A stretch of DNA of 49,657 bases. Origin: Rhodobiaceae bacterium. Its GTDB lineage: Bacteria; Pseudomonadota; Alphaproteobacteria; Rhizobiales; Tepidamorphaceae. Below, in pieces: positions 20,726-49,657 of the stretch. The position numbers were made by a program, and so were the translations under genes. Positions within the stretch are counted from its first letter, which is position 1; each line of letters starts with the position of its first letter. The stretch spans positions 1 to 49,657 of the forward strand of contig JAGRLC010000074.1 in NCBI GenBank assembly GCA_020441995.1, given 5' to 3'. The notes beneath the pieces are model-generated. The model worked only from the letters and a program-made list of their open reading frames with translations, had not been told where the DNA came from and did not search any database.

Positions 20726-20821
20726 GGGAGGCTGGCGGCGGACGAGTTCCTCGCCAACCGGGTCAGGTCCGGAAGGAAGCAGCCCCAACGAGTTTTGCTC
20801 GGGTTGTCCGTTCAGTCTCCC
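20726..20821 (+). ncRNA. ffs: Signal recognition particle RNA, small bacterial type (4.5S)
   Basis: The conserved SRP domain IV core GGTCAGGTCCGGAAGGAAGC (20761-20780), followed by AGCC, is unmistakable. The ends close a stem: GGGAGGCTG at 20726-20734 pairs with CAGTCTCCC at 20813-20821 with one G-U pair. The ~96-base size is that of the short bacterial hairpin. It binds Ffh and helps target membrane proteins at the ribosome. It lies just upstream of dnaX in the same direction, an arrangement I recall from alphaproteobacteria. No protein should be called across it, although two frames are open. Confidence 0.95.
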
Positions 20822-20885
20822 ACCTGATTTCCGCGCTGGTGCGAAAGCATCGAAGGAACCTCACGAAAAGCGATACCCGCGACGC

Positions 20886-39535: not shown

Positions 39536-39612
39536 GCGCCCGTAGCTCAGCTGGATAGAGCACCAGACTACGAATCTGGGGGTCAGAGGTTCGAATCCTT
39601 TCGGGCGCGCCA
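39536..39612 (+). tRNA. tRNA-Arg (anticodon ACG)
   Basis: The acceptor stem GCGCCCG (39536-39542) pairs with CGGGCGC (39602-39608), followed by discriminator G and an encoded CCA. The D arm has GCTCAGCTGGATAGAGC, the anticodon stem is CCAGA/TCTGG with loop CTACGAA, giving anticodon ACG, and the T arm has GGTTCGAATCC. The 77-base cloverleaf is complete. It should read CGN arginine codons after deamination of the wobble A. Confidence 0.96.
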
Positions 39613-46786: not shown

Positions 46787-48430
46787 TTATCCGCGCGGCT
46801 CGCTCATCAGGCCTTTAAGGGTCGCCCAGCACATCAGCAACAGCACGAGTGTGAAGGGCAGGCCGGTCGAGATCACCATTGCCTGCAATGATGTGAGACC
46901 GCCGCCGAGCAAAAGCACGATGGCAACCGCGCCCTCGAAGGTGCACCAGAACACACGCTGGGGAATCGGAGCCTCGACCTTGCCGCCGGCGGTGATGGTG
47001 TCGATGACCAGCGAACCGGAGTCCGACGAGGTCACGAAGAACACGATCACCAGGACGATGCCGATTGTCGATGTGATGGCCGACAGCGGCAGGCCCTCGA
47101 GCATCGCGAAGAGCGAGATCGGCGGGTTGTAGCTGTCGATCACCTCTGCCTTGACGGCCGAGGTCATGGGATCGGCGAGCACCTGCTCGATGGCTGCGCC
47201 ACCGAAAGTCGCCATCCACAGCACGCAGACGATCGAGGGGATGATCAGCACGCAGACGACGAACTCGCGCACGGTGCGGCCACGGCTGACGCGGGCGATG
47301 AACATGCCGACGAACGGTGACCAGGAAATCCACCAGGCCCAGTAGAAGGCGGTCCAGCCCTGCATGTAGCCGGTGTCCTCGCGGCCGAACGGGTTCGACA
47401 GCGGGATGATGTCCTTGGCGTAGCCGATCATGCCCTGGACGAATTCGCTCAGGATGTTTCCCGCGCCCGCTGCGAACAGAACGAAGAACAGCAGAACCGC
47501 CGCGATCACCATGTTGATTTCCGACAGCACTTTCACGCCGCCATCGAGGCCGCGCACCACCGAGATCAGCGCGATGCCGGTGATGATGGTGATCAGGATG
47601 ACCTGGACGGTGGTGTCATTGGGAATGCCGAAGACGTGTTCGAGACCGGCATTGGCCTGCTGCGCGCCAAAGCCAAGCGAGGTGGCAAGACCGAACAGCG
47701 TGGCGAAAACCGCCAGCACGTCGATGATGTGGCCGGTCCAGCCCCAGACCCGCTCGCCGAAGATCGGATAGAAGGCGGAGCGGATCGTCAGCGGCAGGCC
47801 CTTGTTGTAGGAGAACAGGGCAAGCGCCAGGGCCACGATGGCGTAGATCGCCCAGGGGTGCAGGCCCCAGTGGTAGATCGTTGCCGCAAGGCCCATCTGC
47901 CGGGCCGCATCGACGTTCTCCGCGATGATCGTGCCGTCTTCGGCGAACGGGGACGGTACCCCCAGGGGCTGGCTGATGGCCATGTGATAGACCGGCTCCA
48001 GCACGCCGAAGAACATCAGGCCGATGCCCATGCCGGCGGCAAACAGCATCGCGAACCAGCCCATATAGCTGTAGTCCGGCGTTGCGTCCGCGCCGCCCAA
48101 CCGCACGCTGCCCCAGGGGGTAACGATGAGCATGAGGCAGAACAGCACGAAGATGTTTGCCGCGCCCAGGAAGAACCAGTCAAACGTGGATGTGAGTGCC
48201 GGACGCAGCCAGCCGAAGAAAGCTTCGGCCTGTTCGGGCAACGCCAGCGCGTAGAACACGAAGGCGATGATGGTCAGCCCGGAAATCATGAAGACCGGGT
48301 TGTGAATGTCGAGCCCGAAGGGGCCGACCTGGGTGACGATATTGTCCTGACCGATTTCGTAATCGGTATCAATCGGGTTTACGGCGCCTTCGGGACTTGG
48401 AATGCCGTGTGAGTCTTCTGTCGAGCTCAT
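46787..48430 (-). CDS. BCCT family betaine/carnitine/choline transporter
   Basis: A 547-residue secondary transporter for a compatible solute such as glycine betaine. It has about 12 membrane helices and the BCCT substrate-box Trp-rich segments TAFYWAWWISWSPFVGMFIA and GWFAMLFAAGMGIGLMFFGV, with the choline/betaine motif in YHWGLHPWAIYAIV. The GMGIGLMFFG stretch contains Met and Gly in the places that in BetP-like members bear the sodium site. The N-terminus (about 45 residues) is acidic, while the C-terminus is short, unlike osmosensing BetP. It follows a universal stress protein gene by 36 bases and is ended by a strong terminator. Confidence 0.93.
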   Translation of the reverse strand: MSSTEDSHGIPSPEGAVNPIDTDYEIGQDNIVTQVGPFGLDIHNPVFMISGLTIIAFVFYALALPEQAEAFFGWLRPALTSTFDWFFLGAANIFVLFCLMLIVTPWGSVRLGGADATPDYSYMGWFAMLFAAGMGIGLMFFGVLEPVYHMAISQPLGVPSPFAEDGTIIAENVDAARQMGLAATIYHWGLHPWAIYAIVALALALFSYNKGLPLTIRSAFYPIFGERVWGWTGHIIDVLAVFATLFGLATSLGFGAQQANAGLEHVFGIPNDTTVQVILITIITGIALISVVRGLDGGVKVLSEINMVIAAVLLFFVLFAAGAGNILSEFVQGMIGYAKDIIPLSNPFGREDTGYMQGWTAFYWAWWISWSPFVGMFIARVSRGRTVREFVVCVLIIPSIVCVLWMATFGGAAIEQVLADPMTSAVKAEVIDSYNPPISLFAMLEGLPLSAITSTIGIVLVIVFFVTSSDSGSLVIDTITAGGKVEAPIPQRVFWCTFEGAVAIVLLLGGGLTSLQAMVISTGLPFTLVLLLMCWATLKGLMSEPRG

Positions 48431-48466
48431 GTAATATCTCCTGCCGGATTGTTGCTTTCGGCGTCT

Positions 48467-48880
48467 CTAGCGGACGACGAAGACGGACACCTTGGCGTGG
48501 CTTGCCACGTATCCGGCGTTAGAACCGAAGATGTGTTCCAGAACGCCTGGAACGTGCGATGCCATGACGACGAGGTCGGCGCCGGTTTCGTTAACGGCGT
48601 CAAGCAGCTTGCTGTCGAGATCGACGGCCGGATCGTGGCTGACGATCTCGAGGGTCGAAACCTCGGCGCCGTGCGCCTTTGCCTGCGCTGCGGCCAGTTC
48701 GTCGAGACGCTGCTGGAATTCGGCCGGGTTATGCGCGACCGAGCCGGGCGCCGCCGACGTGACGCCGACATAGCAGACCGGCGCGCCATAGTGCTTGGCG
48801 AGATCCGCGGCTGTCTTCAGCGCCTTCTCAAGACGCTCGACATGTCCCAGATCGACTGGGACCATGATCTTTGAGTACAT
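48467..48880 (-). CDS. Universal stress protein (UspA fold)
   Basis: A 137-residue UspA-domain protein. It opens MYSKIMVPVDLGHVERLEKA and ends with the block ASHVPGVLEHIFGSNAGYVA. In ATP-binding members the motif is G-x2-G-x9-G-S/T; here the first two Gly are Ala and Val (ASHV), while GS is kept, so nucleotide binding is doubtful. ATG 48880 has a perfect AAAGGAGG site. It precedes a BCCT gene in the same transcript. Usp proteins next to osmolyte transporters can regulate transport (as known for TeaD with TeaABC), so a similar job is inferred here. Confidence 0.92.
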   Translation of the reverse strand: MYSKIMVPVDLGHVERLEKALKTAADLAKHYGAPVCYVGVTSAAPGSVAHNPAEFQQRLDELAAAQAKAHGAEVSTLEIVSHDPAVDLDSKLLDAVNETGADLVVMASHVPGVLEHIFGSNAGYVASHAKVSVFVVR

Positions 48881-48996
48881 GAAGTTGCCTCCTTTTCCCG
48901 CACGTGTCGCTGCACGCGCGTTTTCGCCGGCTGGTGCGGGATCTTGCGCCTTTCGGGCACGCCCCTTCTGGAAAACCGCCGGTCTGGTGAAGCGTA

Positions 48997-49109
48997 CGCG
49001 GCATTTCGCCGCGTCCAACCTGCGTCAGGCGACGCAGTGTTGATCGTATGCGACAGGCTTGTCGCATTAAGGACAGATTTTAGCTTGTGGACGACTCGGT
49101 CCGTCCACA
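48997..49109. promoter_or_regulatory. Four consecutive hairpins upstream of usp
   Basis: Four perfect inverted repeats lie in a row: CGCGGC/GCCGCG (48997-49002, 49008-49013), TGCGTC/GACGCA (49021-49026, 49031-49036), ATGCGACA/TGTCGCAT (49048-49055, 49060-49067) and TGTGGACG/CGTCCACA (49086-49093, 49102-49109). Loops are 5, 4, 4 and 8 bases. The rightmost is 14 bases beyond the stop of the secreted protein gene and may be its terminator. The others lie in the likely leader or promoter of usp. No T tract follows any of them. Confidence 0.6.
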
Positions 49110-49122
49110 GGCGAGGACGGGC

Positions 49123-49536
49123 TTAGTTGGGGTACCAGTACTCGTACCCGATATCGTCACCGCCACTGTAGCTCCAGGCGCCAGTCCACGAGCCGTCTTC
49201 CTGCTCCACATAGAGTGCGGTGCCGGAGGAATTGCCGGCGCTGTAGCCGACGGAGATGACGGTGTCGTCGGATTGCGCCTCTCCTACCAGGAGACTGCCG
49301 TCGGTGAAGGACGCGCCAAGCCCGGTGCCGGTATAGGTTGTCCCGCCGATGTCCCAGATCACATGATAGGTGTTGCCTGTCCGGGTGACGGTCACCGTAC
49401 CCTTGTATTCATCGCCGGTGCCTGGATTCGTTCCTTCGACACGGAAGGTGCCTGTCGGGTCCGCCATTGCCTGCCCTGCCGCAAGCGTCAACAGCAGGGC
49501 GGCAAAGACAGCGCGGATGATGCCCATTGGCCGCAT
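49123..49536 (-). CDS. Small secreted beta-rich protein, unknown function
   Basis: A 137-residue product with a Sec signal peptide (MGIIRAVFAALLLTLAAGQA, cleavage near AMADPTG). The mature part is rich in Gly, Thr, Ser and aromatic residues with alternating polar and nonpolar residues (TVTVTRTGNTYHVIWDIGGT), so a beta-sandwich or barrel is likely. It has no Cys in the mature part. I do not recognise a characterised family, although small proteins of this kind occur next to formaldehyde dehydrogenase genes. Its ATG overlaps the dehydrogenase stop (TGATG), so it is translationally coupled to it. Confidence 0.78.
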   Translation of the reverse strand: MRPMGIIRAVFAALLLTLAAGQAMADPTGTFRVEGTNPGTGDEYKGTVTVTRTGNTYHVIWDIGGTTYTGTGLGASFTDGSLLVGEAQSDDTVISVGYSAGNSSGTALYVEQEDGSWTGAWSYSGGDDIGYEYWYPN

Positions 49537-49657
49537 CAGTACAGCACGACCGAGCGGATCGACTTGCCCGCATGCATCAGATCGAAGGCGTCGTTGATCT
49601 TGTCGAGTGGCATGGTGTGGGTGATCAGGTCATCGATGTTGATCTTGCCGTCCATGT
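49536..49657 (-). CDS. frmA: S-(hydroxymethyl)glutathione dehydrogenase / class III alcohol dehydrogenase (3' end only)
   Basis: Only the last 39 codons are in the window. They read [20 protein letters not shown] then [19 protein letters not shown] and stop, which is the typical end of glutathione-dependent formaldehyde dehydrogenase. The enzyme oxidises S-hydroxymethylglutathione to S-formylglutathione, the substrate of FghA encoded at 45370-46215. The stop codon overlaps the start of the secreted protein gene. The short visible part keeps the confidence below that of complete genes, but the context agrees. Confidence 0.85.

Follow-up and report, generated by a model that had tools for sequence, protein, structure and literature searches.

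What do four hairpin-like inverted repeats do when they follow one another within little more than a hundred bases, directly upstream of genes for a universal stress protein (usp) and a BCCT-family (betaine/carnitine/choline) transporter: do they act as folded RNA or as binding sites on the DNA, and in the latter case, which regulator would bind them? A preliminary description of this locus had offered two readings, a structured RNA leader for osmotic or stress control and a terminator followed by operators. The genes lie in a stretch of DNA of 49,657 nucleotides, here called the window, and are arranged on its minus strand in the order frmA (C-terminus, to 49536), a gene for a LIC10280-like small protein (49123–49536), a gap of 242 bases, usp (48467–48880, start at 48880) and the transporter gene (46787–48430). 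Usp is recognized by PF00582 (E 4.3e-21), with AGGAGG before its start, and the transporter by PF02028 (E 1.7e-175) and TIGR00842 (460 bits, cut-off 407.55), with a score for the betaine equivalog NF047988 that stays under the cut-off of that model. The LIC10280-like protein matches NF050085 (E 1.1e-10) at 41.8 bits, under the curated cut-off of 100, and its gene is present in the same place in a related genome (G001). Between 45370 and 49657, usp and the transporter gene are flanked by frmA (best match TIGR02818) and fghA (TIGR02821, above cut-off), the two genes of glutathione-dependent formaldehyde oxidation, and this order is retained by sequence in G001 (L133) and in another genome, G077 (L134). 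Because betaine demethylation yields formaldehyde, the grouping may be functional.

The repeats, which we number IR1 to IR4 in minus-strand order from the LIC10280-like gene towards usp and the transporter gene, occupy 48996–49109 and are all perfect, with arms of 7, 7, 8 and 8 bases in coordinate order; the stem lengths of 6, 6, 8 and 8 given earlier thus hold for the latter pair, while the first two are actually 7. IR1 has its perfect core at 49086–49109 (TGTGGACG-N8-CGTCCACA, arms of 8) and can be extended to 49083–49112 with arms of 11 and one mismatch, so that it starts 10 bases past the stop codon of the LIC10280-like gene. IR2 (49048–49067, ATGCGACA-AGCC-TGTCGCAT, arms of 8) and IR3 (49020–49037, CTGCGTC-GCCT-GACGCAG, arms of 7) each have a loop of four bases, and IR4 (48996–49014, ACGCGGC-GAAAT-GCCGCGT, arms of 7) has a loop of five; these three are given on the minus strand. 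Short open frames traverse the stretch and none is supported as a gene, in line with the initial view that it is non-coding.

Could such a series have arisen by chance, as functionless short palindromes that happen to cluster in G+C-rich DNA? Inverted repeats with arms of at least 6 bases are common, at about 3 per kb, and the closest relative lacks the IR3 and IR4 stems, both of which would fit this explanation. Against it, none of 1000 dinucleotide shuffles of 48881–49122 reached four non-overlapping perfect repeats with arms of at least 7 and loops of 3–8 bases (shuffle mean 0.12), and a cluster of four within 130 bases is unique in 449,657 bases, made up of the window and 20 further 20-kb pieces of the same genome, where only two other places hold three (L104 and L105). 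The repeats are thus real and far denser than chance would give, as first described, and three of them share a half-site, so that we regard an accidental origin as improbable.

A structured RNA leader would require transcription from upstream of IR1 or IR2, or read-through from frmA, with the hairpins controlling usp and the transporter gene, for example through mRNA stability or attenuation. Read as RNA, the minus strand from 48990 to 49120 does fold well (z −4.70), as any row of perfect palindromes must; the z-scores are −3.26 for the whole leader (48870–49115) and −3.58 for the 250 bases before usp. The same 250-base test over 35 usp loci also gave low scores elsewhere (L029, −3.89; L020, −2.8; L044, −2.77), so that the window does not stand out by a low score alone. 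No Rfam family matched 48400–49657 up to E = 1. The only RNA-family matches in the whole window are a small SRP RNA and a tRNA gene, at 20727–20823 and 39536–39609. At 48896–48941, just 5′ of the usp ribosome binding site, TCCCGCAC and GTGCGGGA stand 30 bases apart, and the predicted fold there is not unusual.

The sole alignable relative is the usp locus of G001 (L010), which has a Usp 77% identical and the same gene upstream; a search of the family brought up no other genome from the genus of the window. There the core of IR2 and its flanking bases are kept, with a T-A pair beside the core changed to a G-A mismatch, and from this alignment IR2 is the best conserved of the four repeats; neither IR3 nor IR4 persists as a stem, and within this one relative no compensatory change in IR2 was seen. 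The retention of IR2, together with a whole 250-base upstream region whose fold is somewhat more stable than those of its shuffles (z −2.22), speaks for an RNA element, whereas the 96 bases matching the repeats (z −1.2) and the counterpart of IR1 (z +0.86) are unremarkable. Similarity searches with the leader DNA across 101 genomes returned only six short matches outside its own genome, which we took as chance as they sit in stop-free frames of 309–490 codons. Nor did any of 57 other usp upstream regions (34 of a first set and 23 examined later) contain more than one perfect repeat with arms of at least 7 in 260 bases. With no Rfam match, no IR3 or IR4 stems in the relative, no T tract of the terminator type on the minus strand, no unusual structure nearest the ribosome binding site and a promoter-like site where the series ends towards usp, the leader that had been suggested is not supported, and we consider it unlikely. 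That IR2–IR4 are DNA operators rather than an RNA leader is, judged from these comparisons, quite probable.

IR1 is best treated apart from the other three. The frmA stop codon and the ATG of the LIC10280-like gene overlap (49534–49538), a sign that the two genes may form a coupled operon with its end at IR1, and IR1 itself folds well (z −3.10). No T tract follows it, as the minus strand continues TAAAATCTG, and a terminator pattern scan, which found no terminator-like T tract on this strand, did not call it. IR1 is a probable separate 3′-end hairpin of the preceding LIC10280-like gene. The other early proposal, a terminator followed by operators, fits best in this modified form: IR1 lies directly past the upstream gene but is without a T tract, and IR2–IR4 resemble operators of the RegA/PrrA type.

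The repeats also lie at a putative promoter. A −35-like hexamer, TTGGAC (49013–49018, minus strand), and a −10-like hexamer, TACGCT (48991–48996, minus strand), both pattern matches only, form a TTGGAC-N16-TACGCT pair that brackets IR4, which fills the spacer, while IR3 ends 1 base before the −35-like hexamer. Transcription of usp would be expected to start near 48984, so that the hairpins would not be transcribed with usp, and the sequence from the promoter-like site to the usp start has an unremarkable predicted fold (z −0.33). Comparable TTGNNN-N16/17-YACGCT pairs, with the TTG at −152 to −128, were seen in two loci of the same family, L016 and L019, and in L011 and L041, and a GNCGC half-site stands three bases before a TTG in L009, L016, L019 and L020, with a further case in L015 much nearer the gene. 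The promoter pattern was spotted by eye, its −10 part was chosen after inspection and the GNCGC-TTG spacing was likewise noticed afterwards; in 23 later orthologues TTG-N16..18-YACGCT occurred 0 times (0.1 expected), and it is also absent from L010. The promoter assignment thus rests on the window and a few relatives.

IR2, IR3 and IR4 all carry GCGNC-N4..6-GNCGC, with gaps of 6 (GCGAC-N6-GTCGC), 4 (GCGTC-N4-GACGC) and 5 bases (GCGGC-N5-GCCGC), respectively, which is the consensus form of binding sites for the redox response regulator RegA/PrrA, and each is proposed here as a RegA-type site. In the Rhodobacter capsulatus RegA ChIP study (PMC5359404), the site GCGACCGTTCGTCGC at usp (rcc_01156)/ccoNOPQ, marked as repressed, contains an exact GCGAC-N5-GTCGC. 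The 33 sites with expression changes from that study are degenerate in form: GCGNC-N5-GNCGC is exact in 5 of 33, and at least one exact half is found in 22 of 33. For Rhodobacter sphaeroides PrrA, the authors of a ChIP study reported being unable to identify a strong consensus motif (PMC4263372), and a variable half-site gap is described for RegR and PrrA/RegA sites (PMC4064962; PMC4263372).

A matrix built from the 33 published R. capsulatus RegA ChIP sites was scored at 148,929 placements in the window. IR2 reached the top score, tied with two others, and only 7 placements scored above IR3. For IR4, 464 placements scored higher, a low score although it fits GCGNC-N5-GNCGC, because few ChIP-site halves (5 of 66) have a G at position 4. 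Within 450 kb, 15 of 373 perfect inverted repeats hold the pattern, and 3 of those 15 are found among the four studied here (hypergeometric P 2e-4). The 260 bases 5′ of usp contain three pattern sites (0.15 expected), a number reached by 0 of 5000 shuffles, and the density measured in 450 kb (0.17 per 260 bases) agrees with the shuffles. In L010, the same length before usp also contains three (0.19 expected; fraction 0.0002 of 5000 shuffles). Half-sites in these two leaders are in convergent order in 6 cases vs 1 in the three other orders (background 302 vs 792; P 0.002). These values are to be read with the fact that the pattern was brought in once the sequence had been seen and was then checked, and that L010 had been viewed before the pattern was fixed.

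Beyond this pair, the signal is much fainter. The 33 further usp orthologues of the first set contain 6 sites (2.8 expected, P 0.07) with no excess of convergent order (6 vs 5, 4 and 6), and the 23 later ones contain 4 (1.26 expected, P 0.055), where the convergent order does not stand out either (4 vs 1, 3 and 4); these counts omit L030–L038 and L053 (distant Usp paralogues) and L054 (the second Usp of G001). Genome-wide, GCGAC-N4..6-GTCGC is not enriched relative to a reversed control (49 vs 49; 76 vs 105 in G001), while a longer IR2 pattern with at most 2 mismatches is (20 vs 5). Inside the window the core with at most 2 mismatches exceeds shuffles as well (14 vs 5.6), a hint that shuffling coding DNA by dinucleotides may give too low a background. 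A search for a regulon by the exact GCGACA..TGTCGC core recovered none from the copies examined: five other exact copies, among the 49 places, and one with a single mismatch lie within or overlap long open frames. A second three-box cluster (L095) was rejected since it falls inside a stop-free frame. Given these results, the three-site array is, on present comparisons, particular to the window and to L010, the relative nearest to it.

As a positive control for the pattern, the 350-base regions preceding ccoN were taken from six genomes of the family and together contained 7 sites (1.4 expected; reached in 0 of 500 shuffles), with at least one site in five of the six and none in one; L083 alone gives 3 of the 7, and L083 and L085, which are of one genus, share a site. 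The orientation control was weaker (7 of 13 convergent, P 0.04). The count omits cut, split or second ccoN copies (L084, L086, L087, L088 and L089), and the genome of the window is outside this control because both halves of its ccoN, at contig ends, were among those omitted. Some omitted loci hold sites, at positions 256 and 311 (L084), 163 and 752 (L086) and 1034 and 3063 (L087) of the locus listing. Each of the six counted loci (L079–L083 and L085) also has TTGA-N6-TCAA, like an FNR box, 73–133 bases before ccoN. The regulator and its sensor kinase are both encoded in the genome of the window, with RegA at 320.4 bits (NF033791, cut-off 250) and RegB, whose gene adjoins that of RegA, at 560.3 bits (NF033792, cut-off 350). 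All 8 genomes of the family that were searched have a RegA above the curated NCBIfam cut-off. The 60 residues at the C-terminus of RegA match a chain of solved structure, 1umq, which is PrrA, the photosynthetic apparatus regulatory protein (E 6.7e-29).

IR2–IR4 might instead be operators for a different dimeric regulator, such as a TetR-, MarR- or LysR-type protein, answering betaine, formaldehyde or stress, a range of signals proposed because the unit sits between frmA and fghA. Perfect dyads with centers of 4–5 bases around a promoter-like pair would suit such a protein, the frmA–fghA neighborhood is kept in G001 and G077, and another dimeric regulator with GCGNC half-sites would fit equally well. 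A rigid dimer, however, tolerates differing half-site gaps badly. The gap between the GCGNC halves varies here (6, 4 and 5), a variation described for RegR and PrrA/RegA sites in the parts of the reports cited (PMC4064962; PMC4263372), and no regulator gene was found beside the unit among the open frames inspected by eye. We hold this explanation to be possible but doubtful. RegA is the best candidate regulator predicted from the sequence, with roughly even chances of being the right one, and we place about the same confidence in the whole proposal that IR2–IR4 are operators at the usp-transporter promoter whose regulator is most likely RegA (PrrA/ActR).

RegB would phosphorylate RegA once the respiratory chain is reduced. 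Under such conditions, phosphorylated RegA would bind as dimers to the three GCGNC-N4..6-GNCGC sites at the promoter of usp and the transporter gene. IR2 would lie about 52–71 bases upstream of the −10 hexamer, IR3 would abut the −35 hexamer and IR4 would be inside the spacer. From its position, we infer that the spacer site IR4 would repress, and RegA bound at IR2 and IR3 might serve to hold or build up the complex; IR1 would be a separate 3′-end hairpin of the gene before. The lead points to redox or oxygen control of usp and the transporter gene; the titles and opening lines of abstracts screened for this included no paper on redox control of a usp-BCCT unit. More speculatively, and with low confidence, the three-site operator might make the import of betaine-type solutes, along with a stress protein, subject to the redox state of respiration within a formaldehyde-oxidation cluster, such that the uptake of methyl-rich solutes is tuned to the capacity for oxidizing the formaldehyde from their breakdown. 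If RegA control is true, the RegB/RegA regulon would extend to a betaine-type transporter, and the locus would provide a compact natural promoter whose three sites differ in spacing, on which the tolerance of RegA to gap length could be studied. A striking run of hairpins can, on this account, be a row of operators.

Compared with known systems, IR1 shares with intrinsic (Rho-independent) terminators a strong G+C-rich stem just after a stop codon but differs in having no T run on the minus strand. The series as a whole resembles a riboswitch or structured 5′ leader in its several stable stems within the non-coding leader of a transport unit, yet matches no Rfam family, showed no covariation in the one alignable relative and has a promoter-like site at the downstream end of its stems. 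The closest likeness is to the sites of RegA, PrrA, ActR and RegR, with inverted GCGNC halves and a short gap, at a usp gene and in a genome with regB-regA. The R. capsulatus usp/ccoN site differs in that the locus described here packs three perfect dyads into 68 bases at a usp-BCCT unit, with gaps of 4 and 6 as well as 5, and the Rhodobacter usp listed with ccoN is another usp than that of the window.
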